Assembly: GCF_002487355.1 (NCBI RefSeq)
Contig: NZ_NTMG01000032.1
Span: forward strand, 1-58,581
Source: Candidatus Methanoperedens sp. BLZ2
Lineage (GTDB): Archaea > Halobacteriota > Methanosarcinia > Methanosarcinales > Methanoperedenaceae
DNA: 58,581 nucleotides
Reading direction: 5' to 3'
Below the pieces are notes generated by a model. It worked only from the letters and a program-made list of their open reading frames with translations. It was not told the DNA's origin and did no database searches. Made by a program: the position numbers and the translations under genes. Of the stretch, positions 39,333-57,807 are shown in pieces. The stretch's first letter is position 1. Each line of letters begins with the position of its first letter.

Positions 39333-41178
39333 CTATATTCCGCACATTTCCATCATGCAACATACCACTTTTAAGATTTTCAACGGACCAGTCATATACT
39401 TCGTTAAGTAAAGGTTGAATCTGTGTGAAATTTATTCCCAAATTCACAAAATCTTTTTATCAGACTTGTAGAACTCATGGTATAGATGTGTAGCATATTT
39501 TATTCAGCTCATAATATAATTTATGCACAGTATATTCTTTCATATATGTTTCCAAAAAGTGAGAGTATTTTCCGATGCATGTCATTCAAGTTCATGATCA
39601 TCACTCTTTTCTCATTTTCATAAAGAACTGTGATTCCTTCAAATACCTGGAAAACACGTCTCATAGTCGGTTTTTTGGTAGGCTTCCCTGTTTGATCCGG
39701 TATTGCTTGATTCTCTCTGAGAAGTGCCTCCCTCAGCTTCCTCTGAGCTATACTATAGATCATAAGAGCAAGTCCCATAACCATTACAAGTGCTATTATC
39801 CTGCTTTCGTTTTTCAGGAATATACTATGGGCAAAAAATAATGGGTCTTTTAAAAATCTAAAACCTCTTTCAACGGATTGCTGATCCTTGTATGTTTTTA
39901 ATATATCTTCATCACTCATTTTATCATCATTGGTTGCCAGGATGAACTTTCCTTTTCTGAAAAGCACTTTTTTGATTTTTTCCTCATCTTCTTCAAAACT
40001 CGATGTCACATTACACATTATCTTCAGAACATCATTCTTTTTTGGTCTTCCAACATTACCTTCTTTCTTCTTTCTGCTCTCTTGGATAGCGATATTCTTT
40101 ACTTTGTGATATTTCCATTCACGAGCCATCTCCTGCAGAGCTTGCAGAGCATCTTCTTTACAGTAAAAATCATCATTGGAAAAATGCCATAACTGCTTTT
40201 CTATCACTTCCCTTTCTTTAGTTATGCTCTTTTTAAGGGTTTTACTTTCTCTCTCATACGCTTTCTGGGAGAATATCACTATCCATCTCTGCTTTACTCC
40301 ATATGTAATTTCCGTGCTTAACAAACTATAACCATCTAACGATGTCTGATTCATGTCTTTTAAGTCAGAGATTTTAAGCAATTCTTTTGCATCAGATAAT
40401 GTTTCTGGGACTCTTGTTATCCATTTATGTTTTTCTGAAATCGCTTTCAGGTTATCCTTACTGTAGAAAGCACTATCCCAGACCCAAATGCAATCCTTAT
40501 CCCAATTTTCTTTCAAGAAATTTCCATAGTTTTTGGCAATCTCTCTGAAGTGATTTTTGTCCGATGCGTTGCCGCTCAATGTCTGTATAAAAAGTGGCAA
40601 TTCTTTGGACATGATCAGGGATGTAACGAACTGTTTTAGATCCGGTCTATTATCTTTAGAATGGCCATAGGTGACCTCGATAGGAACTGCATCCAGATCA
40701 CCTTCTTCATGTTCGTATTCTCCGTGGACACTGAACGTTGTAGTATCGTGATGAAGAAATCTACCCTTGAATCCATACTTTTTGTAAGCATTTATTGCTA
40801 TCTGTAGAAAGGTCTCTTCTGTTCCTGTTTCATACAATCTGTCCAGACTTCTTCCAAGCGTATCATCATTGAAGTCTTTCCATGAAAGATGTTCACCTAT
40901 CAATAGTTCCACTGGTTTTGTTTTCATGAATTCAGGAAAAAGATACAATGGTTTGCTTACAAATCCTAAAGCGTTCAAGATCATTGCTTCTACGGATTCA
41001 CCGGTGGTTACCTTTTGTCTTTTATCTATTCCTACTATTCGGTCTATCTCTGCTGCAAGTTCAATTTCCTTGCAAACTCCTGCTACTATGCCAAGATGAT
41101 CCAGGCTTTTACTGCTGTATTCCATTAATCTAATTCCTGATTTAGCAGGAGGTTATATTAAAATGTGCGGAAAATGGG
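39333..41178 (-). mobile_element. IS1634-family insertion sequence
   Basis: About 1.85 kb. Imperfect terminal inverted repeats share the 12-bp core TTCCGCACATTT (39338-39349 and, inverted, 41161-41172), flanked by ATTTACC direct repeats. A single intact DDE transposase gene occupies it. The element sits inside the last codons of a phosphatase gene. Confidence 0.85.
39521..41125 (-). CDS. IS1634-family (IS4 superfamily) transposase
   Basis: 534 residues, intact. DDE-type catalytic residues: Asp in FLHHDTTTFSVHG, Asp in CIWVWDSAFYSKDNL and Glu in QQSVERGFRFLKDPLFF, the C-terminal signature of IS1634/IS1549-like enzymes. Related elements are frequent in Methanosarcina. The full-length frame suggests the element is or was recently active. 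Confidence 0.93.
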   Translation of the reverse strand: MEYSSKSLDHLGIVAGVCKEIELAAEIDRIVGIDKRQKVTTGESVEAMILNALGFVSKPLYLFPEFMKTKPVELLIGEHLSWKDFNDDTLGRSLDRLYETGTEETFLQIAINAYKKYGFKGRFLHHDTTTFSVHGEYEHEEGDLDAVPIEVTYGHSKDNRPDLKQFVTSLIMSKELPLFIQTLSGNASDKNHFREIAKNYGNFLKENWDKDCIWVWDSAFYSKDNLKAISEKHKWITRVPETLSDAKELLKISDLKDMNQTSLDGYSLLSTEITYGVKQRWIVIFSQKAYERESKTLKKSITKEREVIEKQLWHFSNDDFYCKEDALQALQEMAREWKYHKVKNIAIQESRKKKEGNVGRPKKNDVLKIMCNVTSSFEEDEEKIKKVLFRKGKFILATNDDKMSDEDILKTYKDQQSVERGFRFLKDPLFFAHSIFLKNESRIIALVMVMGLALMIYSIAQRKLREALLRENQAIPDQTGKPTKKPTMRRVFQVFEGITVLYENEKRVMIMNLNDMHRKILSLFGNIYERIYCA

Positions 41179-44366: not shown

Positions 44367-45635
44367 TCAGTGCCCGTCATTCGGGTAATCGGGATGGTCC
44401 CGAAGGACAGGCATCCTGTTAACGATCCATCGGTAAACCAGTACCTGTATTATGACAACCGATATAACTACCAGCACTTCCTTCCAGTAGAAAAGTTCCC
44501 CGCGGGGGAGCTGGTAGTTGAATGTCAGCAATGTCAGGTTGAACCTGTTAAGGATAATTCCGATCATCGTCACCGCACCTGTTACCTGGATAAGTTTAAC
44601 GTTCTTCTTCATTACCCCGTAATAATACAGGAATGGAACTAATGCAAGGATCGCTATCTCAACCATGAACCAGTGACCTGTTGGCGTATCGAGGTATTTC
44701 CATGCTCCTTCATGTGTAATGCTTATCAATCTCATTCCCAGATATGTAAACATGACAAGTGAAGAGGCTTTCCCAAGACCGATCGTAACATCATCGATAC
44801 TTCCAAGATATTCTGCCGATGCCCTGTTTCTGAAATATATCGTAGTTAGTTTACTAACAACTATCATCAGTGCCATCGCAGCTCCTATGGCCGAGATAAG
44901 GGCAAGCCACGGCAGGTATGATGTATACCAGAGCGGATGCACCTTACCAGGCGCAAGAAGGAACATGGCAGACAGAGCCGACTGATGCAGTGTAGAGAGC
45001 ATTACTCCGAATATAGTAAGACCCAGTGTCATGCTCACAGCTATCTTTCGCAGATACCCCTGGTTTAGCCAGGCCAGGACTGACGGGCAGAATTCAAAGA
45101 ATTGCACAGATAGATACAGGGCTACATGCCAGGCCACAAGGAACATTACTGATGCTGTCCCGAATGATATGGCCATAGGATAATATATTCTCCACGGGCG
45201 GCCAAGGTCTATCATAAGGAATATTACTGCAAACAGATATCCCAGGAAACCCAGCAGGATAGCATTCTTGACAATTGGCTGGTATCTCTTAACCCCGAAA
45301 ATATAAACTCCAGTCCCTATGACAAATCCTGATGCTGAGAACGGGACTCCACTGAATAATCCCCATGTAAGGAATAGTCCCCATGGCTGCTCATTCGAAG
45401 CTTCAGTTACCTGGTCAAGTCCGTAAATGAACCGCATTGCTATCAGGAACAGGCCCGCAAAGACAATGAGACCCGCACCAATGTTAAGAGGAGTGATGAG
45501 TGTCTTCATATATTCTTTGAACGATAGTCCCAGAAATATCTTCTCCCTGAACCAGTTAGAAATTATTTCCGCACCGGTCAGTTCATTTGCGGGATACACA
45601 TGTCTTTCCACAGTTTCGTTTCCAAATTCATTCAT
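44367..45635 (-). CDS. NrfD/HybB-type membrane subunit
   Basis: 422 residues with about ten membrane helices, polysulfide-reductase NrfD family; HybB-like features include the C-terminal LPRGELFYWKEVLVVISVV. Such subunits interact with membrane quinone and pass or accept electrons through the attached FeS protein. Its start overlaps the end of the FeS gene by 8 bp, so the two are translationally coupled. With the FeS protein and the seven-heme cytochrome it forms module 1. Confidence 0.92.
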   Translation of the reverse strand: MNEFGNETVERHVYPANELTGAEIISNWFREKIFLGLSFKEYMKTLITPLNIGAGLIVFAGLFLIAMRFIYGLDQVTEASNEQPWGLFLTWGLFSGVPFSASGFVIGTGVYIFGVKRYQPIVKNAILLGFLGYLFAVIFLMIDLGRPWRIYYPMAISFGTASVMFLVAWHVALYLSVQFFEFCPSVLAWLNQGYLRKIAVSMTLGLTIFGVMLSTLHQSALSAMFLLAPGKVHPLWYTSYLPWLALISAIGAAMALMIVVSKLTTIYFRNRASAEYLGSIDDVTIGLGKASSLVMFTYLGMRLISITHEGAWKYLDTPTGHWFMVEIAILALVPFLYYYGVMKKNVKLIQVTGAVTMIGIILNRFNLTLLTFNYQLPRGELFYWKEVLVVISVVIIQVLVYRWIVNRMPVLRDHPDYPNDGH

Positions 45636-46560
45636 GTTTTATATCCTCCTCAGGTTTTTTCTCATTCTCATTCTCATTCTCATGTCCTTCATGCGGTTTT
45701 TTATGTGTCGCCATATAGAAACCTCCAAGCAGCGCAGGCCATGTGACGAGCGTTAGATTTACCATACCCAGGAAATCCTTTGTCAGTTTCGGAAATGATG
45801 TTGTCCCGATGTTTTCAGGGAACCCCATTTTCTCAAACGGCAGTTTTGAAACATATAACCAGCCAGTTCCTCCGGCTTCGGTTTCACCATACACATGGTC
45901 GATATATTTATCGGGTTCACCCCATATTCTCTGCTTTGCCATTTTTATCAGGTCATTTCTTTTTCCGAACTGTATGGCTTCAACAGGGCATGCTTCCGCG
46001 CAGGCGGGAATGAGACCATCTTTTATCCTCTGGCTGCACATGAAACATTTCTGGATCTTCGGTTCAAAGGCGCTTGAATATTCAAAGGCCGGGACATAGA
46101 ATGGACATGCTGTGATGCAATAACGGCATCCGATACACAGCTTTTCATTCCATACTACCGGTCCTTCTTTTGATTTTGTCAATGCAGCTACGGGGCAGGC
46201 CGTAACACATGCCGGTTCATCGCAATGCATACACTGGACCTTGCGATATACCGGCTTTCCATCCTCGCCCTCGAACCTGTTGACAACCGTATATGACTGC
46301 ACATCTGCGACGTAAGGTTTCCTCTTTTCTTCAAAAACAGAGGTATCTTCAAACGATGTTTTCGCAGTTGGAAGATTATTAGCCTTGTTACATGCAGCTT
46401 CACAGCGGCGGCATCCGATGCACCTTGTTGTATCAGTCAGCATACCCAGGCGGTCTGGATTTCCTTCAAAATCCTGTGCTCCAAGAACGCTTTCGCTGCC
46501 AAGAATGCTTGCTGCAACAACAGTTCCGCCTATTTTGAGCAAGTTTCTCCTGTTTATCAT
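45628..46560 (-). CDS. HybA-like [4Fe-4S] ferredoxin-type protein with Tat signal
   Basis: 310 residues. Twin-arginine leader INRRNLLKIGG, then four cysteine clusters (CIGCRRCEAACN, CMHCDEPACVTACP, CIGCRYCITACP, CFMCSQ...CAEACP) for four FeS centres. A C-terminal hydrophobic anchor (VTWPALLGGFYMA) is followed by a His/Glu tail coded by a CTCATT microsatellite. The layout matches HybA. It sits outside the membrane and links NrfD to the multiheme cytochrome upstream. Confidence 0.92.
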   Translation of the reverse strand: MINRRNLLKIGGTVVAASILGSESVLGAQDFEGNPDRLGMLTDTTRCIGCRRCEAACNKANNLPTAKTSFEDTSVFEEKRKPYVADVQSYTVVNRFEGEDGKPVYRKVQCMHCDEPACVTACPVAALTKSKEGPVVWNEKLCIGCRYCITACPFYVPAFEYSSAFEPKIQKCFMCSQRIKDGLIPACAEACPVEAIQFGKRNDLIKMAKQRIWGEPDKYIDHVYGETEAGGTGWLYVSKLPFEKMGFPENIGTTSFPKLTKDFLGMVNLTLVTWPALLGGFYMATHKKPHEGHENENENEKKPEEDIKHE

Positions 46561-46563
46561 AAT

Positions 46564-47367
46564 TTATCCTCCAATTAGTTTGTGACAGCCCTGGCATGTA
46601 TTGCCAGCTCTTCCTGCATGATCTTCAGGCACTAACGCCGCTCCTGCAACTCCTGTTGAATGGCACTTAAGACAGCTGTCATGATAAACGATCTTTGACT
46701 CCATGCCCCCATTTGGTATCCCTTTCGGATGGCACCTGTTACATGTATCCCATGTAAGCTGGTGCGGACGGATTGGAGCTGAGACTATGGCTGATGCTTT
46801 TAGCTCCCCTGTGTGGCAGTTAATGCAGCTGTCAGGTCCATTGAAATCTCCAGGATGGCAGGAAATGCATCTCTCATGATAAGCGGCCTTCAGACCCGGT
46901 TTGGTCGAATTATGCGGATTAGCCGGACTGTCATGACAATCCTTACATGCATGGATCTCATCCCCGCTGTTATGATGGCATGTAATACAACTGACCTTTT
47001 CACTCATGATCTTATGGAAATCAGTCGCTGGCCCGTATTTGATTGAAAGGTACTCAGATTTATTTACTGTTGGCCATCCGTTATTCGAAGCAAGTCTGAC
47101 CTGCCTGATATTATCGGATTGTATGGCCACTGTTGCGTTTGAAATATTCGGGGCTGCAACATCAGAAGTATCTGAAGATGTAAGTACGATCGCCCCGCCC
47201 CCAAAGACCAGTGCAAGGGGAATAACGAAAGATACTATTGTTGACCTTTTCATCTTATCCCTGGAGTTTACCAGTATCCACAGGGCGATAAACCCGAAGC
47301 AAAACGCTATTACAATCAGGTATTCAACCCCTTTGACAAACGTCATGAATTCAAGTAATGTATTCAT
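46564..47367 (-). CDS. Membrane-anchored seven-heme c-type cytochrome
   Basis: 267 residues. Two N-terminal hydrophobic segments (VEYLIVIAFCFGFIALWILV; IVSFVIPLALVFGGGAIVL) are followed by seven CxxCH sites: CITCH, CKDCH, CISCH, CINCH, CNRCH, CLKCH, CQGCH. Probably carries electrons between the NrfD/FeS unit and outer acceptors or donors. The start follows AGGTG. It is the first gene of electron-transfer module 1, directly after RHH/V4R protein 1. Confidence 0.93.
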   Translation of the reverse strand: MNTLLEFMTFVKGVEYLIVIAFCFGFIALWILVNSRDKMKRSTIVSFVIPLALVFGGGAIVLTSSDTSDVAAPNISNATVAIQSDNIRQVRLASNNGWPTVNKSEYLSIKYGPATDFHKIMSEKVSCITCHHNSGDEIHACKDCHDSPANPHNSTKPGLKAAYHERCISCHPGDFNGPDSCINCHTGELKASAIVSAPIRPHQLTWDTCNRCHPKGIPNGGMESKIVYHDSCLKCHSTGVAGAALVPEDHAGRAGNTCQGCHKLIGG

Positions 47368-47441
47368 TTTAACACCTATTATTTAGTTCAATTTTTTGTA
47401 TTGTTCTTCTGCGATCCCGACTTCATCCAAAATTTCTGATT

Positions 47442-48884
47442 TTATGGCACTCGTATTAACACCTCACAACAATTGTCCCCGTGCGACAATAATTTCTTAA
47501 CATCAAGCTCGGCCCTGTTCCCAAAAGCGTGGTTCACTGCCCCTTTAAAAGTTTCCCTTATCGTATGGCAGATGTATTTATCGACTGAATTACCTTCAGC
47601 TACAATATTGCATTTCTTGATTGTATATAGTAGATTTTTCCCATCCGGTTTCCATTCGCTTTCCCTGTGGAGTTTAGAATCAATTATTTCAAGAGCTTTC
47701 TGGAAATTCTGGAATTCCCAGCTTTTTATATTATTCTCTTTTTCGTACTCCTGCATCAGGGATATCCCTATCCTTCTCCCCAGGGCTGTCAGCGATACAG
47801 GTATATCAGGAATGTTCTTTAGCCCTTTTAAAAAAGCCATGAACATTATCAAGTCCTGGTCCACCCTGCTGTTACTGATCTTGAGGTTGCTTACTATCTC
47901 GTTTATCCTGATCCCCACATCCGGCCTGTGTGTCAACACGACCATATTGGCAGTTGACTTGGCATCATAAAGGTGGCCGTTCGCTTCCAGAAGTGAGACT
48001 ATGCTTGTTTTCAGTTTGTCTATTACCTCCTTGTTCCTGTAATTATGGAACAATATGAGATTCTCCCGGTCAACCTCTACCCTGTCCACAACTCTTGAAG
48101 TTTCATATACTTCCTTAATCAGGGACAGCATTTCGCGAAGAGGAATTTCCTGGATAGGTTTCTTGGCAAGCGTTTCTATTGTTATCTCGCCCATAGGAAC
48201 TTTACCAGAAAGCAGATCCTCAAAGTAGTTCCTGTGAACGGTTACCATATTGTAATTGCTCAGGAGATGTCCGTTGATTATTGATTTCCAGAAATCAGGG
48301 CGGCTTTTGATGGCCTGGATAATTTCATTCAAACCTCCAAAAGAGGTAATAAGGCTATCATATCCTTCCTTCTTGTTTGATTTTGATAGTTCAACTCTTA
48401 TACCTCCATCGAGATTAAAAACCGAAGTTATCTCAAGCGGAGCATGCTCAGGTGAGTTTTTCACAAGATACTGGGCAAGCATCCTCGCAACGAATCTTAT
48501 TTTCTGGGGCGAGCCTTTGACCTCTATCAATACTTCTGATGCAGATGTATCATTATCGTATTTCAGGGAAAGGTCAACATCCCACTCCAGTTCGCTGAAT
48601 TTGTTCTTGAGATATTCTTCAAGTTTTCCCATCGAATTTATCAGCATGGGACCTATCAGATCATCCAGTACATTGTCCGGGACAAGCAAACCGTCGATCT
48701 CGTTGAGCATCCATTTGAACAACGTATTGTCAATTGTGGAAATATTCTCAAGTTCACTGTTCTTTCCAGCCCGGTCTATTATCTCTCTTATTGCGGCGCT
48801 GAAATTACCTTTATGTTTTTCAACATAAGGCTCCATCTTCTGTATGCAATCATTGTCAAGAGAGATATGTCTTGTAACGATCAT
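47442..48884 (-). CDS. RHH/V4R-like putative sensor-regulator, copy 1
   Basis: 480 residues, one of three paralogues here. Residues 1-40 (VTRHISLDNDCIQKMEPYVE, then NFSAAIREIIDRAG) look like a ribbon-helix-helix DNA-binding segment. The middle ~330 residues match no family I know. The end (KKCNI, YICHTIRETFKGA, LLSHGDNCCEVLIRVP) resembles a V4R small-molecule-binding domain with conserved Cys and His. The RHH, V4R and regulator calls are inferences from pattern. ATG 48884 aligns with the starts of the other copies (xxxxRHIS). It is immediately upstream of the seven-heme cytochrome operon. Confidence 0.65.
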   Translation of the reverse strand: MIVTRHISLDNDCIQKMEPYVEKHKGNFSAAIREIIDRAGKNSELENISTIDNTLFKWMLNEIDGLLVPDNVLDDLIGPMLINSMGKLEEYLKNKFSELEWDVDLSLKYDNDTSASEVLIEVKGSPQKIRFVARMLAQYLVKNSPEHAPLEITSVFNLDGGIRVELSKSNKKEGYDSLITSFGGLNEIIQAIKSRPDFWKSIINGHLLSNYNMVTVHRNYFEDLLSGKVPMGEITIETLAKKPIQEIPLREMLSLIKEVYETSRVVDRVEVDRENLILFHNYRNKEVIDKLKTSIVSLLEANGHLYDAKSTANMVVLTHRPDVGIRINEIVSNLKISNSRVDQDLIMFMAFLKGLKNIPDIPVSLTALGRRIGISLMQEYEKENNIKSWEFQNFQKALEIIDSKLHRESEWKPDGKNLLYTIKKCNIVAEGNSVDKYICHTIRETFKGAVNHAFGNRAELDVKKLLSHGDNCCEVLIRVP

Positions 48885-48917
48885 AATTACCCCATTTCTT
48901 TCTCTGGTGGTCTTCAT

Positions 48918-49199
48918 TTACACTTTCCCAAATTGCTCATAGAGAAGTTCTTTTTCCCGTTTCAGTTCTGCTTCCCTTCGTGCAAGCGCTTTCATAGCAT
49001 CATTTGCTTTTACTGAGATTGTGATCCTGTTCTTACTGTCTTTAATATATCCTCGCAGTCCAGCTGCCAGGAAAACAGCCGCTGCGATCGGTAAAAGAAT
49101 GACCCATCCTGTCAGGAAAGCTATAAAACTTTCAGATGGCAGGAAATAGACAGTTCCAATTACGATCCCGGCTGCAAAATACCGTTTCCAATTATACAT
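48918..49199 (-). CDS. Small two-helix membrane protein (partner of RHH/V4R copy 1)
   Basis: 93 residues. Two membrane segments form a hairpin (YFAAGIVIGTVYFLPSESFI; WVILLPIAAAVFLAAGL), then a charged coiled-coil tail (MKALARREAELKREKELLYE). ATG 49199 is preceded by GGGTGAAG and is preferred to a start 35 codons earlier. It shares the pattern Y(F/Y)LPxExFxAxxxGxxxLxP with the 55-residue protein at 54242. It ends 33 bp before RHH/V4R copy 1, suggesting a membrane-linked sensor pair. Confidence 0.65.
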   Translation of the reverse strand: MYNWKRYFAAGIVIGTVYFLPSESFIAFLTGWVILLPIAAAVFLAAGLRGYIKDSKNRITISVKANDAMKALARREAELKREKELLYEQFGKV

Positions 49200-49370
49200 A
49201 TGCTTCACCCAATTATGATTATCCAATGCCAATGTTAAAAGAATATTTGACAGGAAGATAGCATGGAAAGCCATGAATAGACATAGTTTAACATAAAAGA
49301 GCATAATATGCCATTACATGGCCTGGAAAATACAGGGTATGGCAAATGACAGGATTATTTTGAAATAAGG

Positions 49371-50813
49371 TCAAGGCATCCTTATGATCACCTCGCAGAA
49401 ATTATCTCCATGTGTCAGTAAATGTTTCGTACACATCCGGGCTTTGTTTCCAAAAGCGTAACTCAATGCCCCCTTAAATGTCTCCCTCACAGTATGACAA
49501 ACGTAATTATCAAATTCATTTCCATTTCCTGCAATATTACATTTCCTGATTGTATAAAGCAGATCCTTTCCTTCTGATTTCCATTCACTTTCCCTGTGGA
49601 GTCTTGCATCTATGCTCTGTAATGCCTTCTGGAAGTTGTCCAGTGTCCACGTCTTGATGTTATTTTCCAATTCATATCCCTGCATTAAGGATTTACCTGT
49701 CCTTCTACCCAGGGATGTCAGGGATATGGGAATATCAGGAATGTCCTTTAATCCTTTTAAGAATCCAAAAAATACCAGAAGTTCCTGGTCAAGCCTGGTA
49801 TTGCTGTTTTTCAACGTCTTAACGATCTCATTTATTTTTATTCCAACATCAGACCTGTGGGTCAATATTACGATGTTGGCTGTTGCCCTGGCATCAAACA
49901 TATGGCCATTTGCTTCCAGGAGCGCATGAGCGCTTTTTCTTAGTTTTTCAATAGCTGCCCTGTCCCTGTAACTATGGAATAAAACAAGTATGTCTTTATC
50001 GATTTCCACCCTGTCAACTATCCTTGATGTTTCAAAGACCTCTTTCATAAGATGAAGCATTTCTGTAAGAGGGATTTCCCGGATGGGTTTTTTTGCAAGA
50101 TTTTCTATTGCGACCTCCCATGCCGGTATTTTACCCTCAAGCAGGTCCTCAAAATAATTCCTGTGGACAGTGACCATATTATAATTACTTACAAGATGCC
50201 TGTTGAACAGGGATTTCCAGAACGCTGGGCGGGTCTTTATAGTCCTGACAAGCTCGTCTGTCTTTCCAAAAAAAATCTCAAGGCTAAGGAGCGCATCTTT
50301 ATTATTTGAACCTGATAATTCAACTTTTATACCTTCATTAGTATTAACGACCGACATGACTTCAAGAGGTTTAATTTTAAGTGAATTTTTGACAAGATAC
50401 TGGGTAATTAAGCTTGTAATGAATTTTATTTTTTGATTGTTGCCTTTTATTTCCATTAATACTTCACCAGGGGAAATATCATTATCAGATCTTAATGTGA
50501 TGCAAATTCCCCACTTAAGTTCCTCAAATCTTCGATTAAGATAACTTTCCAGTTTGTCCATCGAATTCATCATTATAGGATCTACGAATTCATTAAGTAT
50601 CTCAGAAGGAAGGAGCTTTTCATCTATTTCCTTGAGTATCCAGTTAAATAAGGAATGGTCTATTGCAGATGAATTGATCCTGGTATCATACTTTCCAGCC
50701 TGGCAAATCATATCCCTTAATGCTGCGCCAAAATTCCCGTTATGCTTATCAGCATAGGGTTTTAATTTCTCAATATATTCATCTTCAAGTGAGATATGCC
50801 GTGTAATATTCAT
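49371..50813 (-). CDS. RHH/V4R-like putative sensor-regulator, copy 2
   Basis: 480 residues, collinear with copies 1 and 3 from MNITRHISLEDEYIEKLKPY to HGDNFCEVIIRMP. Shared invariants include NYNMVTVHRNYFEDLL, DIPISLTSLGRRTGKSLMQ, RLHRESEWK and CHTVRETFKGA. Three cysteines in the C-terminal domain are common to all copies; this copy has an extra one (MCTKHLL). It lies between the cytochrome b module and the small membrane protein plus copy 1. Confidence 0.65.
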   Translation of the reverse strand: MNITRHISLEDEYIEKLKPYADKHNGNFGAALRDMICQAGKYDTRINSSAIDHSLFNWILKEIDEKLLPSEILNEFVDPIMMNSMDKLESYLNRRFEELKWGICITLRSDNDISPGEVLMEIKGNNQKIKFITSLITQYLVKNSLKIKPLEVMSVVNTNEGIKVELSGSNNKDALLSLEIFFGKTDELVRTIKTRPAFWKSLFNRHLVSNYNMVTVHRNYFEDLLEGKIPAWEVAIENLAKKPIREIPLTEMLHLMKEVFETSRIVDRVEIDKDILVLFHSYRDRAAIEKLRKSAHALLEANGHMFDARATANIVILTHRSDVGIKINEIVKTLKNSNTRLDQELLVFFGFLKGLKDIPDIPISLTSLGRRTGKSLMQGYELENNIKTWTLDNFQKALQSIDARLHRESEWKSEGKDLLYTIRKCNIAGNGNEFDNYVCHTVRETFKGALSYAFGNKARMCTKHLLTHGDNFCEVIIRMP

Positions 50814-50968
50814 TTTTCTTTTTCCACTCCTTTATTATACCTATAAAATGACAATCCTAAAAGAGTATTTGAGAAGACATTCGGGTTTTGTGTCCATTGG
50901 AGGTTTTTTATGACATGAAATGACAACAAAAAAGAAAAAAAATCGTTTTTGAAAACCTCTATAACATG

Positions 50969-51802
50969 CTATACCACGCGCAGGACATACGTCTTAACCG
51001 CTTCCATAAGCACGCTATACGATATCCACACCATCCATATGCAAATTGTAAGGAAGATAATCGTGAACACAAGTTTCGCAAATCCCACTATCAATATATT
51101 TTTGTGTTCCTTGCGTTCCTTGTTTTCCATATTTTCCGGATTTGCAATTTTTTGGCTTTTCATGGCTTCTTCGTATTCCAGGGGATGCTCATGGCGCATT
51201 TCCTCCTCCGGGATATTCCCTGTCAGCCAGGCAAGATTTGGGAATTTTTCGAATTGCTCGTCATAAAAATGTCCTATGAAGATTGCAATGGATGCAAGTA
51301 CTGCCTCCCATGTATGGAACAGGTTCGCTATCTGAACAAATCCTATTGGAAAATATTTCATGGCTTCAAAAGGCTGCCACATCAATAATCCTGTAAAACC
51401 CATTACTACTGCTCCGAATCCTGCCCCGAAATACTCGAATTTCTGTTTCCAGGTATATCGTCCGAATTTTGGATGCTCATCCGAATATCTCAGGTAATAC
51501 CTTACCTGCTGCTTGAAATCCTCGACATCCTTAAGATTAAATAGTATGTCATAACGGGGTTTCTCAAGAATATGGTAAACAGCATGATATATACTCACTC
51601 CTATCATTACAAGGCCGGAAAAATGATGGATAAATGTCCTGTTATCGAATCCACCTACTGATTCTATCATCCACCTTGACCACCATTCTTCAGGGAACTT
51701 GAGAGGAAAACCCGTGTACGCAAGCAGAATAAAAGAGGTAAAGAATATTATATGCTGTATGCGCTGGTTCAGGGTAAACCTCTTGAATTTTAATTCTACC
51801 AT
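50969..51802 (-). CDS. Cytochrome b (formate dehydrogenase gamma/b561-like)
   Basis: 277 residues. Four membrane helices with His pairs in RIQHIIFFTSFILL, FIHHFSGLVMIGVSIYHAVY and LFHTWEAVLASIAIFIGHFY, as in FdnI-type subunits that exchange electrons with quinone. A charged loop and a fifth hydrophobic C-terminal helix follow. ATG 51802 has GGAGG upstream and lies just before (3 bp) the cytochrome c stop. With the seven-heme protein it forms electron-transfer module 2. Confidence 0.9.
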   Translation of the reverse strand: MVELKFKRFTLNQRIQHIIFFTSFILLAYTGFPLKFPEEWWSRWMIESVGGFDNRTFIHHFSGLVMIGVSIYHAVYHILEKPRYDILFNLKDVEDFKQQVRYYLRYSDEHPKFGRYTWKQKFEYFGAGFGAVVMGFTGLLMWQPFEAMKYFPIGFVQIANLFHTWEAVLASIAIFIGHFYDEQFEKFPNLAWLTGNIPEEEMRHEHPLEYEEAMKSQKIANPENMENKERKEHKNILIVGFAKLVFTIIFLTICIWMVWISYSVLMEAVKTYVLRVV

Positions 51803-51804
51803 GA

Positions 51805-52665
51805 TCAATGCCTCCTTCTTATCTCAAAATTTGATGTAATTCCAAGGAAAATAAGCCCTATTGTAAAGGTAAGTTCAAAAAGGATCATAAGTATATAGAA
51901 ATACGTTACAAGCCTTTTTGCATCAAGGGAAAGCAGGTAAACAGACTGCTCTTCATGGATCTTACCTCCTGTGATAAAGACATTATTTGCACCCGGATGA
52001 CACCCGCTTTTTCCGCAAGTAGACGGCAGATTCGCGGGATTTATTGCTGATTTCGGATCACTTGCCTGCCTTGTATCATGGTTTTCATGACAATCCGAAC
52101 AGCTTGCAAGTAACCTTCCGCCGCCTGCATAAGACTTATAATGGAAAGATTTTTTGTAAGTGTCAAACCTGTCTGTCCTGATGCCATAATATAAGGCTTG
52201 CATTCTGGTCTGGTTTTCATGACATTTTGCACATGTTTCCGGTACATTTGCCGAATATGTCGAAGAATCGGGATTTTTCGATGAAAGGATATTGTGGATG
52301 CCGTGGCAATCGGTACATGATGCTGATGTTCTTCCTTCCCTGAGTCTTTGCCAGTGAATGCTGTCCTCATATACCCGGGTTTCATTCCCATGACATTTTG
52401 AACAAAAGTTCGTGACATTTACAGGTGAAGGTGTTCCTGTAAAATTCGTGTGCATCACATTTATGGAAACAACACTCCCGCTGATATTTACGTCTCCGCC
52501 ATGACAGTCCGCACACGTATTTTTATTAAAATGTATGCTTGCCCGGAATTCATTCACCTGTGCCGGATGGCAATGATAACAGGAGATATCCGTATTTTCA
52601 TCCTGCACAGATGCCCCGGTCAAAAAGAAAATACCGATTAATGCCAGGATTATTATCCTGCTCAT
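51805..52665 (-). CDS. Seven-heme c-type cytochrome with C-terminal membrane anchor
   Basis: 286 residues. Signal peptide (SRIIILALIGIFFLTGAS). Six CxxCH motifs (CYHCH, CADCH, CSKCH, CTDCH, CAKCH, CSDCH) and a seventh of the rare form CGKSGCH (CX4CH). A C-terminal helix (YFYILMILFELTFTIGLIFL) anchors it. It resembles NapC/NrfH-linked or octaheme-type electron carriers that receive electrons from a cytochrome b. Start 52665 begins the signal peptide; a longer frame would overlap RHH/V4R copy 3. Confidence 0.9.
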   Translation of the reverse strand: MSRIIILALIGIFFLTGASVQDENTDISCYHCHPAQVNEFRASIHFNKNTCADCHGGDVNISGSVVSINVMHTNFTGTPSPVNVTNFCSKCHGNETRVYEDSIHWQRLREGRTSASCTDCHGIHNILSSKNPDSSTYSANVPETCAKCHENQTRMQALYYGIRTDRFDTYKKSFHYKSYAGGGRLLASCSDCHENHDTRQASDPKSAINPANLPSTCGKSGCHPGANNVFITGGKIHEEQSVYLLSLDAKRLVTYFYILMILFELTFTIGLIFLGITSNFEIRRRH

Positions 52666-52694
52666 CCAATTTTTTATTATGTTGAAATCTGGTT

Positions 52695-54131
52695 CTATTG
52701 AATTCGTACTACCACCTCGCAAAAATTATCACCTTGAGATAATAATTTTTGAACATCTAATACTGCTTTATTACTGAAAGCATAGTTCATTGCTCCTTTA
52801 AACGTCTCCCTTATAGTGTGGCAAATGCATTTACTGGGATCATTCCGGGCAATGCTGCATTTCCTGATAGTATAATGCAGGTTTTTTCCATCCGCTTTCC
52901 ATTCACTTTCCCTGTGAAGCTTTGAGTCAATAATTTCAAAAGCGTTTTTGAATTTCTCCAGGTTCCATTCCTTGATGTTATTTTCCAATTCATATTCCTG
53001 CATTATGGATTTACCAAGTCTTCTTCCCAGGACAGAAAGAGATAAAGGAATATCGGGAATGTCCTTCAGGCCGTTCAGGAAAGTAACGAACATCAATAAT
53101 TCCTGATCAACTTTATTGCTGCCCGTTTTCAGATTATCTATTAATTCATTGATCTTTAAACCGATATGGGGCCTGTGTGTCAGCACGATCATATTTGCTG
53201 TTGATTTCCCATCGTACAGATGGCCGTTTGATTCCAGCAGTGTTAAAATAATCCTTTTTAATTTATCCACTGCTTGTTTTGCCCTGTAATTATGGAAAAT
53301 GACCAGTTTGTCGTTTTCGATTTCCACCCTGTCAACAATCCTTGAGTTCTCATAAACCTCCTTTAAGAGCCAGAGCAGATCTTTAAGAGGTATTTCCCGG
53401 ATTGGTCTTTTTGCAAGAAATTCTATCATCACTTCCCCCCCTGGTATATCATTAGCAAGTATGTCTTCAAAAGAGTTCCTGTGGATTGTGACCATATTGT
53501 AATTGCTGAGGTGATGACCTTTGATAATCGGGATCCAGAAATCAGGACGGCCTTTTACAGTCCCCAGAATTCCGTTCAATCCTCCGAAAAAAGTGATTAA
53601 ACTATCTTCTGCCTCTGTTTTATCTGACAGTGATAACTCAACTTTTATGCATTCATTGAAATTGACGACTGACCGTACTGCCAGTGGTGAGCGGATGAGT
53701 GAATTTTTCACGAGGAACTGTGACACTAATCCCGCAATAAACTTTATTTTCCGTGGTGAGCCTCTTATTGTTAAAAGGACCCCGGCTGGAAAATTATCAT
53801 TATCGCATTTCAAACAAAGGTTTACTCCCCACTCAAGTCCTGTTAACCTCTTGTTTATATTTTCTTCAAGTTTTCCCATGGAATTTATCAACATCGGGCT
53901 GATCAATTTATCAAGAACGTCCCCGGGAACCAGTATATCATCGATCTCCTGTAACATCCAGTTAAACAAAGAAGTATCTATTGCCGATGAATTGAAGGCC
54001 TGATTGTATTTTCCTGCCTGGCAAATCATATCCCTTAAAGCGGCTCCCATATTCCCATTATGTTTATTTATATATGGCTCCATTTTTTTCAGATATTCAT
54101 CGTCAATGGATATGTGTCTTGAAAAGTTCAT
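52695..54131 (-). CDS. RHH/V4R-like putative sensor-regulator, copy 3
   Basis: 478 residues, third paralogue. N-terminal MNFSRHISIDDEYLKKMEPY, RHH-like helix NMGAALRDMICQAGK; C-terminal RKCSI, ICHTIRETFKGA, QGDNFCEVVVRIQ. ATG 54131 is preceded by GAGGGACC and matches the starts of the paralogues. It directly precedes the module 2 cytochromes (stop 30 bp from the cytochrome c start) and follows a small membrane protein. Confidence 0.65.
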   Translation of the reverse strand: MNFSRHISIDDEYLKKMEPYINKHNGNMGAALRDMICQAGKYNQAFNSSAIDTSLFNWMLQEIDDILVPGDVLDKLISPMLINSMGKLEENINKRLTGLEWGVNLCLKCDNDNFPAGVLLTIRGSPRKIKFIAGLVSQFLVKNSLIRSPLAVRSVVNFNECIKVELSLSDKTEAEDSLITFFGGLNGILGTVKGRPDFWIPIIKGHHLSNYNMVTIHRNSFEDILANDIPGGEVMIEFLAKRPIREIPLKDLLWLLKEVYENSRIVDRVEIENDKLVIFHNYRAKQAVDKLKRIILTLLESNGHLYDGKSTANMIVLTHRPHIGLKINELIDNLKTGSNKVDQELLMFVTFLNGLKDIPDIPLSLSVLGRRLGKSIMQEYELENNIKEWNLEKFKNAFEIIDSKLHRESEWKADGKNLHYTIRKCSIARNDPSKCICHTIRETFKGAMNYAFSNKAVLDVQKLLSQGDNFCEVVVRIQ

Positions 54132-54241
54132 GGTCCCTCTTAGAATGTTAAATAGATCCTGCATGAAGTTTCACACAGGATCTTGTTCTTGTGCCTCTTT
54201 CCCCGCTTCATTGTTATGCCTGTCTTTAATGGAATACGGAA

Positions 54242-54409
54242 TCAGGCGCTTGCTACTGATTGCATCATGTACACAAAGATAGATGCTGGTATAAGGAACA
54301 ATCCTCCTGCAAAGGCAGCAAGGAATGTTTCTGCCGGGAGATAATACGCTGCTGTCATAAAAGCTGCCGCAGCTATTGCAGCTATTATAGATTTGGTTTT
54401 ATTTTGCAT
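54242..54409 (-). CDS. Small two-helix membrane protein (partner of RHH/V4R copy 3)
   Basis: 55 residues read from the minus strand: starts MQNKTKSIIAAIAAAAFMTA, ends MMQSVASA. Two hydrophobic segments joined by YYLPAETFLAAFAGGLFLIP, matching the same joint in the 93-residue protein at 48918 (YFLPSESFIAFLTGWVILLP). GAGGTG lies 9 nt upstream and a TATA-like ATATATAG further up. It precedes RHH/V4R copy 3. Confidence 0.6.
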   Translation of the reverse strand: MQNKTKSIIAAIAAAAFMTAAYYLPAETFLAAFAGGLFLIPASIFVYMMQSVASA

Positions 54410-54578
54410 AATTCATAACACCTCAATACAATCTATATATTGACATTATTAAATAATCAGTTGATAATAAAATGTCAGGAAAAGAGTGTAAGCCGTCATA
54501 TCCGGTTTTTTGTGGGAAAAAAACACCAATAAATAAAATGGTGTGTATTATATAATTTAAAAAAGCCTGTATTACTAA

Positions 54579-54614
54579 AATATTGGAATTAAAAATGCAT
54601 GAATTCCAAATATT
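54579..54614. repeat. Imperfect palindrome in the divergent spacer
   Basis: AATATTGGAATT, 11 bp, then AATTCCAAATATT: arms match with one inserted base. Possible operator or hairpin. Confidence 0.5.
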
Positions 54615-54659
54615 GGTTTAAGAAACCCATTAATTTTTAAATTTGGCTTATTGAAGCCA

Positions 54660-54708
54660 TTATGAGGACTATAGTTGATTTTTTTATATGAGAATTATAG
54701 TTGATTTT
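54660..54708 (+). repeat. Tandem 24-bp direct repeat upstream of the cohesin genes
   Basis: TATGAG(GA/AA)(C/T)TATAGTTGATTTTTT occurs twice in tandem, with two mismatches between copies, about 65-110 bp before the cohesin-dockerin start. Repeated sites at this place suggest a regulator-binding array. Confidence 0.6.
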
Positions 54709-54772: not shown

Positions 54773-56659
54773 ATGATACGCATAAGATTCGAACTGACAT
54801 TATTCGTAATGATAATGATAACCGGGCAGGCAATGGCTGCCGATGTAAAAGTATTTCCTTCAAGTTATCCCGCGAACCAAGGAGAGACTTTTAATTTGAA
54901 TGTAACAATAGACCCGCAGGGAGCAGCAATTGCAGGTGCGCAGTTAAATATCGATTTTGATCAAACAAAGATCAAAATAAATAATATTACTGAAGGAAAC
55001 TTATTCAAACAGAATGGAGCAAGCACTTTCTTTGCAAATGGCATTATAAATAATTCAACAGGTACTGTGATAAATCTGTTTGGTGTAGTAATTGGCAGGA
55101 CGAATGTATCAAATCCTGGCACATTCATCATTATTAATGCTACGGCCATTGGTTCATCAGGTACATCCGGAATAAGTCTTTCAAATGTTAAGATCAGCAA
55201 TTCTGAAGCCCGGCCTGTTCCTCCGGTAGTATATAACGGAAGTGTGACCATTAACAGCCCGCCAGTACTTTTGAAGATCGGTGATAAGAAGATTTTTGAA
55301 GGCCAGGCACTTACTTTCACTTTATCTGCAACTGATAATGATTCAGATACTCTTACATACTCAGCTTCAAACCTGCCGGCTGGTGCGATTTTTAATCCTG
55401 CCACAAAAACTTTCAGCTGGATGCCTGATCTCACACAATCCGGTATTTATCAGAATGTACATTTTGAAGTTTCAGATGGGACATTGAGGGATTTTGAGAA
55501 TATCGCAATAACTGTAAATAAGCGTTCAAATATAGTCGTAACACCGTCAAGCAAGATCGTAAATCCCGGGCAGACCTTGCGCCTTAACATATCAATTGAC
55601 CCGATGGGTAATCCGATCTCAGGAGTACAGCTTTCTCTTACATATGACAGATCGATCCTTAGAGTGGATAGCGTAACAGAGGGAACTCTCTTCAAACAAA
55701 ATGGAGCAAGCACGATCTTTAATGGCGGTGTAATAGATAATACATCAGGAAAAGTAAACAATATTTATGGGTCCATCCTCGGTCCTTATAATGTTACAAC
55801 TGCAGGGACGTTCTTTGCTATTGACTTCACAGCAATTGGTTTATCAGGGGCATCCATTGTTAATATTTCAGATATAATGATAAGCGACCAGTCCGGATAT
55901 CCGGTGGCGTTCAATCTGACCAGTGGAAGCGTATTAATAAACAGCCCGCCGGTGCTCAATACAATTGGAAATAAGACCGTTGATGAAGGCCAGGCTCTTA
56001 TTTTCACTTTATCAGCGGCTGATGCAAATGGAGATGCGCTTACATATTCCGCAACAAATCTTCCCTCTGGCGCTGTGTTTATCCCTGCAAACAGGACGTT
56101 CTTGTGGACACCAGACTTCACACAATCGGGCAATTACCCGGATATTCGTTTTGAAGTATCTGATGGCAGTGTGACGGATTTTGAAAATATGATGATAACT
56201 GTAAATAACATCAACAGGCCACCCACATTTACTTCTTTCCCGTACAATGGCTCAACGTTTGATGAAACACAGAGTATCCCGATCAGCATTATAGCAAACG
56301 AGCCTGATAACGACACACTTAGCTACATAATAAAATTGGATGGCAAACTGGTGAGTACAACGGCAAGTTATCTCTGGGTAACTAATTATTCCAGTTCAGG
56401 CAACCACAATATAGAAATATCAGTAAGCGATGGGACAGTATCTGTTATGGGAATAACAATCGTTTACATAAATAATGTATATCCAAGATACGATGTTAAT
56501 AAAAACGGAGTAGTTGATATTGGAGACCTGACAATAATCGGACAGCATTTCACTGAAAAGGTCAATGCGCCATATCCGGGATATGATGTTAACATGGATG
56601 GGGTTATTGATATCTCAGATATTACAATTACCGCCCAGCACTTTGGAGAAAATACATGA
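54773..56659 (+). CDS. Secreted scaffold protein with two cohesin domains and a dockerin
   Basis: 628 residues. Signal peptide 1-23. Cohesin-like domain 24-161 (NQGETFNLNVTIDP; AGAQLNIDFDQTKIKINNIT), putative Ig/cadherin-like domain 162-250, second cohesin-like domain 253-390, second Ig-like domain 391-478, third Ig-like domain 481-568. A C-terminal dockerin 572-628 has two calcium loops (DVNKNGVVDIGD, DVNMDGVIDISD), each followed by (T/I)xxxQHF. It should bind cohesins through the dockerin and dockerin-bearing proteins through its cohesins. No catalytic domain. The next gene starts 4 bp inside its end. Confidence 0.88.
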   Translation: MIRIRFELTLFVMIMITGQAMAADVKVFPSSYPANQGETFNLNVTIDPQGAAIAGAQLNIDFDQTKIKINNITEGNLFKQNGASTFFANGIINNSTGTVINLFGVVIGRTNVSNPGTFIIINATAIGSSGTSGISLSNVKISNSEARPVPPVVYNGSVTINSPPVLLKIGDKKIFEGQALTFTLSATDNDSDTLTYSASNLPAGAIFNPATKTFSWMPDLTQSGIYQNVHFEVSDGTLRDFENIAITVNKRSNIVVTPSSKIVNPGQTLRLNISIDPMGNPISGVQLSLTYDRSILRVDSVTEGTLFKQNGASTIFNGGVIDNTSGKVNNIYGSILGPYNVTTAGTFFAIDFTAIGLSGASIVNISDIMISDQSGYPVAFNLTSGSVLINSPPVLNTIGNKTVDEGQALIFTLSAADANGDALTYSATNLPSGAVFIPANRTFLWTPDFTQSGNYPDIRFEVSDGSVTDFENMMITVNNINRPPTFTSFPYNGSTFDETQSIPISIIANEPDNDTLSYIIKLDGKLVSTTASYLWVTNYSSSGNHNIEISVSDGTVSVMGITIVYINNVYPRYDVNKNGVVDIGDLTIIGQHFTEKVNAPYPGYDVNMDGVIDISDITITAQHFGENT

Positions 56660-57807
56660 GACTGATCGGCCATAAATTTTTCTTATTTTTCTTAATTGCC
56701 ATTATTGAAAGTCCAGCTGCTATTGCTGCGACTGTTTACCCGGACCAGCTTCCGTCCAATATTTCTGCTGGCCAGACGTTTGATATTGGAGTAAAAGTTG
56801 ATCCGCAAAGTATAGCGATCGCAGGTGCACAGATGGATATCTCATATAATAAATCCGTACTTAAGATAAACAGTATTACGGAAGGAAATCTCTTCAAACA
56901 GTATGGGACAACTACAATTTTTAATGGCGGTGTAATAGATAATTCGCTTGGCAGGGCAGTAAATATTTATGGTTCGATCATAGGACAAAAAAACGGACAA
57001 AATTCCGGAACCTTTATTATTATCAATTTTACTGCACTTAATTCTATAAATGATCCACAGATACAGATCAATCTTGAAAATGTCCGGGTCGTTGACCCTG
57101 ATGGAAATCAAGTTTTTCCGACTCCTGCTTCGACACCTGGCCAGCAGGAGAAAGGAACTTCCAGTTCTGGTGCAGGGGGAAGCAGTTCGGGTGAAAACCA
57201 TACAAACATTGAATTGATAGAAAAATATGACCTTTATATTTACAGGAATGTCACAACTTCCTACAGGTTCAGGGAACAAACAAATCCGATAGTTTTTGTA
57301 AATATTACGGGTAATACAGATTCATTTGAAATAACTACTTCTGTAGAAGTATTAAAAAGAACTTCAACCCTTGTGAAATCCGGTGCTCCTGGATTGGTCT
57401 ATAAGAATATCAATATCTGGGCAGGGAATTTTGGATATGCGACACCGGATAACATAAAACATGCAGAAGTAATATTCAGGGTGCCTATTGCATGGATGGA
57501 GGCCAATAATATCGATCCGGACTCGATTGAAATGATGCGATATGATGATGAGTGGCAGTCTTTGCCCACAAGAAAGATCGGAACGTATAATAGTGATATC
57601 CTGTATGAATCCAGTACCATTGGTTTCTCATTTTTTGCAATAAACGGAAAAAAATCAACCGGGGAAATGAATAATTATTCCGGAACTACAACCATTCAAC
57701 CAGAAAATCATGCCAATTTAAACAATTATGTATTGGTTGTTGTCTTCGCAAGTATTGTAACAGGTTCAATCCTGGTTTATAGAATAAGGATGCTTAAGAA
57801 GAAATAA
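56656..57807 (+). CDS. Membrane-anchored cohesin protein (PGF-pre-PGF-like C-terminus)
   Basis: 383 residues. Signal peptide ~1-24, one cohesin-like domain ~25-157 closely related to those of the upstream protein (AGAQMDISYNKSVLKINSIT; TIFNGGVIDNS; VNIYGSIIG). Then a Ser/Gly linker 157-180, a ~150-residue domain resembling the PGF-pre-PGF module of archaeal surface proteins, and a C-terminal helix 357-376 with a KKK stop-transfer end. It overlaps the upstream stop by 4 bp (ATGA), so it is co-translated. It would anchor the upstream dockerin protein to the cell surface. Confidence 0.85.
   Translation: MRLIGHKFFLFFLIAIIESPAAIAATVYPDQLPSNISAGQTFDIGVKVDPQSIAIAGAQMDISYNKSVLKINSITEGNLFKQYGTTTIFNGGVIDNSLGRAVNIYGSIIGQKNGQNSGTFIIINFTALNSINDPQIQINLENVRVVDPDGNQVFPTPASTPGQQEKGTSSSGAGGSSSGENHTNIELIEKYDLYIYRNVTTSYRFREQTNPIVFVNITGNTDSFEITTSVEVLKRTSTLVKSGAPGLVYKNINIWAGNFGYATPDNIKHAEVIFRVPIAWMEANNIDPDSIEMMRYDDEWQSLPTRKIGTYNSDILYESSTIGFSFFAINGKKSTGEMNNYSGTTTIQPENHANLNNYVLVVVFASIVTGSILVYRIRMLKKK

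Follow-up and report, generated by a model that had tools for sequence, protein, structure and literature searches.

FAM is the name given here to a family of paralogous proteins of about 480 residues, three copies of which are encoded in the window, a stretch of 58,581 nucleotides within one contig (NZ_NTMG01000032.1) of the 3.74 Mb, Methanoperedens-type genome of Candidatus Methanoperedens sp. BLZ2. All three genes lie on the minus strand and form, together with genes for small membrane proteins (SMPs) and two electron-transfer modules, three units that are each headed by a 31-bp promoter element. From 54409 down to 44367 the gene order is SMP3, FAM3, a multiheme cytochrome, a cytochrome b, FAM2, SMP1, FAM1, a 7-heme cytochrome, an HmcB-like FeS protein, and an HmcC/NrfD-like protein (Table 1). 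FAM1, FAM2, and FAM3 share pairwise identities of 57-60%, and a fourth full-length FAM is found with an SMP on contig C11 of the source genome, which also contains shorter relatives.

The original prediction, made from the letters of the window alone, described three paralogs of about 480 residues on one strand, interleaved with two electron-transfer modules, and the coordinates and identities bear this out. Copy 1 directly precedes a cytochrome with seven CXXCH motifs, a HmcB/HybA-like FeS protein, and a HmcC/NrfD-like protein, and copies 1 and 3 are each preceded by a homologous SMP with a common motif, both as had been claimed. The order given for copy 3, ahead of a seven-heme cytochrome and a cytochrome b, is also correct, but the heme count is not, as this cytochrome has six canonical motifs and one CX4CH. 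More than 15 other Methanoperedens contigs show this order in whole or in part, which argues that the arrangement is not due to chance.

Table 1. Genes and promoter elements of the FAM locus, in order along the minus strand
Feature	Position	Strand	Remarks
Promoter element copy A (TCAACTGATTATTTAATAATGTCAATATAT)	54435..54464	-	25 nt upstream of SMP3; 24.5 bits
SMP3, 55 aa, two-transmembrane small membrane protein	54242..54409	-	SMP family profile and alignment
FAM3 (copy 3), 478 aa, RHH (probable) - tandem alpha-beta-beta-alpha-beta-beta-alpha - V4R	52695..54131	-	
c-type multiheme cytochrome, NapC/NirT-like, 6 CXXCH + 1 CX4CH	51805..52665	-	Probable start 52665
Cytochrome b, Ni-hydrogenase/formate-dehydrogenase gamma (b561/FDH-gamma) type	50969..51808	-	TIGR01583 E 2e-19, below cut-off
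Promoter element copy B (TCAAATACTCTTTTAGGATTGTCATTTTAT)	50843..50872	-	29 nt upstream of FAM2; 38.5 bits
FAM2 (copy 2), 480 aa; not directly followed by a cytochrome of its own	49371..50813	-	AF2 model made
Promoter element copy C (TCAAATATTCTTTTAACATTGGCATTGGAT)	49221..49250	-	21 nt upstream of probable SMP1 start; 42.9 bits
SMP1, 93 aa, two-transmembrane, cytoplasmic tail	48918..49199	-	Start corrected from 49304
FAM1 (copy 1), 480 aa	47442..48884	-	
7-heme cytochrome (7 CXXCH), HmcD-like N-terminal membrane segment	46564..47367	-	NF045722 TmcA, NF045713 HmcA C-terminal region, NF045712 HmcD
HmcB/HybA-like 4Fe-4S protein, TAT-exported	45628..46560	-	NF045715 HmcB, 380.9 bits (cut-off 420)
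HmcC/NrfD-like integral membrane quinone-type subunit	44367..45635	-	NF045714 HmcC, 384.7 bits (cut-off 550); Pfam NrfD above cut-off

Nearly all Methanoperedens genomes encode a full-length FAM, as do ANME-2-type families within the same order. Only a form of about 350 residues that lacks the V4R domain was found in the Methanosarcina-type genomes examined, and no FAM was found in the viral contigs searched. In an unbiased genome search, all 22 HmcC orthologs of Methanoperedens lie behind a FAM, as do 18 of 19 group-A cytochrome b genes; the contig of the 19th is short and shows no FAM upstream. None of the 22 genes for the paralogous group-B cytochrome b has a listed full-length FAM within 10 kb. 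Across the Methanoperedens loci, full-length FAM genes are in cytochrome clusters in 60 of 86 cases, and 26 are orphans.

Promoter comparison exposes a conserved block with the 31-bp consensus TCAAATATTCTTTTAACATTGTCATTAGATA, also written as TCAAATATTCTTTTAACATTGTCATTAGAT; in a scan, most SMP starts and several FAM starts have it at a distance of 8-50 nt upstream. The three copies in the window are the only matches above 5 bits along its whole length, and they are 63-80% identical inside the element and 30-42% identical in the flanks. A position weight matrix (PWM) run over 0.9 Mb of Methanoperedens loci yields 72 sites, of which 70 are upstream of SMP/FAM genes and the other 2 immediately precede FAM genes that have no annotated SMP; shuffled sequence yields none. 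A 30-position pattern allowing up to two mismatches gives 66 sites over the whole of 31 Methanoperedens genomes, versus 1 for the reversed pattern; 65 of these lie at SMP/FAM genes, two of them at solo SMPs. The source genome, scanned with degenerate patterns and not the full PWM, has four sites at up to one mismatch, each belonging to a FAM unit. Because these four went into the pattern, their match is by construction, and what is informative is the lack of any further site. Matches at three mismatches are near the control level. The element stands directly before none of the cytochrome, HmcB, and cytochrome b genes (0/86), and transcription of these module genes would therefore start either at the unit head or at other promoters.

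Because no window copy contains an RHH or V4R domain above cut-off in single-protein Pfam/NCBIfam scans, the domain calls for FAM rely on family profiles and fold comparison. Modelling and profile methods give good support to a C-terminal domain of the V4R/TRAPPC3/H-NOX fold. In an AlphaFold2 (AF2) model of FAM2 built from 50 sequences (mean pLDDT 76), the best PDB matches of this domain by Foldseek are TRAPPC3 (6aq3, E 1e-4) and further TRAPP proteins, followed by H-NOX and the MopR phenol sensor. Comparison by hhalign with V4R proteins from related genomes, a set that included a few noise open reading frames (ORFs), gives a probability of 91. Weak V4R matches occur in 5 of 18 relatives and in none of the window copies; the direct HMM matches in two relatives reach at best E ~4e-4 and 22 bits, against a Pfam cut-off of 31. 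With a profile of the 18 relatives, no PDB chain is retrieved up to E 10 other than TRAPPC3 (profile residues 357-415, E 0.002) and NikR (2-48, E 0.13). Cysteines C425, C439, and C473 are invariant in the 50-sequence FAM alignment and align with three V4R cysteine positions, while the V4R cysteine eight residues before the last is a leucine in FAM. On the strength of the fold, the profile-profile comparison, and the direct matches, the V4R domain predicted at the C-terminus holds.

The RHH domain predicted at the N-terminus stands as probable only. The N-terminal sequence suggests a divergent RHH because it contains a (G)N-x-S-A-A-I-R motif and because RHH_1 matches occur in 9 of 32 FAM N-termini, but these are all sub-threshold (best E 0.0011) and the PDB match to NikR is weak (E 0.13-0.2). 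The AF2 model places RHH-type helices at residues 11-23 and 28-40, with an N-terminal strand that is not confident. Between the two domains, an alpha-beta-beta-alpha-beta-beta-alpha unit repeats twice (about 85-182 and 249-336 in FAM2). This tandem topology is reminiscent of LAGLIDADG proteins; however, its fold matches (de novo LHD101 proteins; the LAGLIDADG protein I-DmoI at E 3e-3 with a poor TM-score) are too weak, and no fold is assigned to the middle region for this reason.

A fold that also matches H-NOX heme domains, encoded in strict operon linkage with cytochromes, would suit an assembly or cofactor-handling protein, such as a heme or quinone chaperone for the adjacent modules. Such a role is quite improbable for FAM, given its probable N-terminal RHH and the absence of any hydrophobic or signal segment seen in its sequence. 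Moreover, the paralogous cytochrome b-multiheme cytochrome modules do without FAM, and FAM does without cytochromes in the 26 orphan copies and in the ANME-2a/b/c copies beside Usp-Mrp genes.

The comparative evidence favors, with a probability of roughly two-thirds, a reading in which FAMs are one-component transcription regulators that act at the 31-bp element, each co-transcribed with and controlling its electron-exit module. The units would be element-SMP3-FAM3-cytochrome-cytochrome b, element-FAM2, and element-SMP1-FAM1-cytochrome-HmcB-HmcC. The N-terminal RHH would bind DNA as a dimer and be joined by the tandem alpha-beta linker to the C-terminal V4R sensor with its three conserved cysteines. 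FAM would be autoregulated, its own unit being headed by the element on which it would act, and the module genes would be co-transcribed from the unit head across gaps of 30-110 nt. Given the TATA-like core and the spacing from the start codon, the simplest effect of binding at the element would be to block TBP/TFB and thus repress. A signal received by the V4R domain, either redox or hydrophobic (quinone-like), may then release or enforce this block, as in MsvR. Redox sensing by FAM is plausible by analogy, since three cysteines are conserved and MsvR provides a precedent.

MsvR is a methanogen-specific V4R regulator described in M. thermautotrophicus and M. acetivorans. This archaeal, redox-sensitive HTH-V4R protein binds to a motif that precedes every known msvR gene, and it acts as a repressor through promoter blocking (PMC3729527). 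FAM resembles it in being a putative one-component regulator of archaea, in the conserved cysteines of its C-terminal V4R domain, and as the likely partner of a private motif that lies in its own promoters and is placed to block them. The C439-C473 spacing of 34 in FAM equals that of C206-C240 in MaMsvR. FAM is nonetheless not an MsvR: it has a different DNA-binding domain (RHH-like rather than HTH), an extra tandem alpha-beta region, and an element that lacks the MsvR motif TTCGN7-9CGAA. The position of MsvR C232 is a leucine in FAM, whereas C425 is a further invariant cysteine. FAM also differs in having several paralogs per genome and SMP and cytochrome modules within its units.

Alternatively, the element is a specialised core promoter (BRE/TATA/initiator) for a particular TFB or another regulator, and FAMs are passengers that it regulates rather than proteins that bind it. 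The TATA-like TTTTA core, in an element that ends about 20-30 nt before the start codon, is at the right distance for a core promoter, no clear dyad is present, and ANME-2 FAM promoters contain the BRE/TATA-like sequence CAAAAGnCTTTTTATATT at a similar position. This is unlikely, however, as the information in the element reaches well past BRE/TATA (TTGnCAT...AT), FAM has its own probable DNA-binding domain, and an alternative TFB should also act on further genes, while in 31 genomes the element keeps to SMP/FAM genes.

Several observations weigh against FAMs as dedicated regulators of their modules. The 26 orphans among the 86 Methanoperedens FAMs have no adjoining cytochromes, and several of them have no element in front while the neighboring SMP has one. 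FAM genes of ANME-2a/b/c are divergent from UspA genes that adjoin Mrp antiporter operons, and in one ANME-2 family FAM is also convergent with an Rnf-cytochrome operon. The element was not found in the ANME-2a/b/c or Methanosarcina loci, where weak matches of 10-11 bits were disregarded; its absence from ANME-2a/b/c counts here, as do the lack of strong symmetry (operator dyad or direct repeat) in the element and RHH matches that all fall below curated cut-offs. In one published study (PMC10542353), three of four oxidoreductase clusters in one species change significantly with the electron acceptor, and the FAM-linked cluster may or may not belong to these three. Homologs in Methanoperedens are mainly with cytochrome genes (60/86), but the orphans and the ANME-2a/b/c copies are not, and the Usp-Mrp and Rnf contexts imply an association with energy metabolism that is wider than cytochromes. 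Examples of the Usp-Mrp context include L116:5332-17058, L115, L130, and other loci. The predicted dedicated regulators of adjacent modules are therefore partly supported overall, with strong support from the unbiased linkage (22/22 and 18/19) and from a shared element confined to FAM/SMP units.

By alignment, SMP1 and SMP3 belong to one two-transmembrane family with the common motif Y-x-x-P-(A/S)-E-(T/S)-F and a conserved cytoplasmic tail. The annotated SMP1 start at 49304 was dropped in favor of ~49199, because the element falls inside the longer reading and homologs begin at the later Met. As the first product of most units, SMP may couple the regulator to the membrane. A tentative and rather doubtful extension has SMP reading the quinone pool or membrane state and holding or freeing the RHH-V4R regulator, which through the shared element would decide the electron-exit complex for each acceptor. 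Solo SMP genes with the element and no FAM nearby are found at L187:3472-3783 and L188:3550-3861. A good match (26.8 bits) at L189:3999 (-) lies inside an ORF with neither SMP nor FAM near and is unexplained.

RHH antitoxins autoregulate at operator-promoters, and SMPs are small two-transmembrane proteins, some of them solo with the element; both traits would fit a toxin-antitoxin-like pair of RHH protein and SMP, autoregulated and fixed near respiratory genes. This origin is highly improbable, as the large FAM sensor region is unlike antitoxins, the genes are conserved in fixed operons and in nearly all genomes of the genus, the SMP cytoplasmic tail is conserved, and PADLOC gave no match for FAM.

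The window modules are already known as menaquinone:cytochrome c oxidoreductase clusters of the kind described by Leu et al. 2020 (PMC7327174), whose description pairs a cytochrome b with a 6-heme multiheme cytochrome and an NrfD-like protein with FeS and multiheme cytochrome subunits. The passages searched there do not describe FAM, SMP, or the regulatory element. FAM was found to accompany just two of the module types and is missing from the paralogous cytochrome b cluster. The earlier statement that no system of this composition is described fails for the modules but stands for their control, as no regulator of these modules is named in the passages searched of PMC7327174, PMC10542353, PMC7082337, or the ANME comparative study PMC9012536. 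No report joining V4R with Methanoperedens or ANME-2 was found in the literature searched, and within it neither protein family (FAM or SMP) nor the element appears to have been described. Expression of such clusters varies with the electron acceptor (PMC10542353, PMC7082337), and Methanoperedens switches menaquinone:cytochrome c oxidoreductases when respiring nitrate, iron, or electrodes (PMC10542353). Such differential expression needs a switch. Since the regulator units share a promoter sequence that is nearly absent from the rest of the genome, the evidence points to a dedicated, so far undescribed control circuit for electron-exit gene sets in Methanoperedens. Given candidate regulators, a list of genes, and a 31-bp sequence as their private binding-site candidate, this switch becomes testable in vitro without a pure culture. 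The circuit would extend V4R-based regulation from oxygen-stress regulators (MsvR) to the control of extracellular respiration and add a previously undescribed small membrane protein family tied to V4R-type regulation.

Among curated families, those of the Hmc complex (HmcABCD) of sulfate reducers give the best-fitting names to the FeS and NrfD-like subunits, as well as to two parts of the 7-heme cytochrome, its N-terminal segment and its heme region. However, the FeS, NrfD-like, and cytochrome matches in the window are all below equivalog cut-offs, and the cytochrome is far smaller than the 16-heme HmcA. FAM also shares its fold superfamily, a cluster of three conserved cysteines, and an occurrence in methanogen-related lineages with the MetOD1/V4R/HNOB domains of archaeal response regulators (Galperin et al. 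2018, PMC5847659), but it lacks a receiver domain and has its probable RHH output in the same chain.

The short FAM of Methanosarcina (~350 aa) is homologous to full-length FAM over residues 1-320, consists of the probable RHH and the tandem region without V4R, and in two Methanosarcinaceae-type genomes has one copy directly downstream of an mtrEDCBAFGH-type operon (L181:8586-9716 in G165; L182:8893-9972 in G037). Three tandem short-FAM copies are found elsewhere in G165 (L180). Orphan FAM genes in Methanoperedens are often near S-layer and apparent cobalamin-biosynthesis genes (L108:4467-9263, L097, and similar loci). On the Mnv1 contig (L063/L014, G009:C211), several stop codons interrupt the second FAM copy. 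A second, diverged HmcC cluster in this assembly, taken together with the interrupted FAM, suggests mixed strains or decay.

Imperfect hairpins upstream of SMP3 (about 54540-54690) are not conserved between orthologs and were dropped in favor of the 31-bp element. A transposase-like ORF (IS-type) lies near the cluster at 39521-41125 (-). At 54773-57807 (+), two divergently oriented exported proteins contain repeated cohesin-like segments, and the first ends in dockerin-like repeats (DVNKNGVVDIGDL, DVNMDGVIDISDI).

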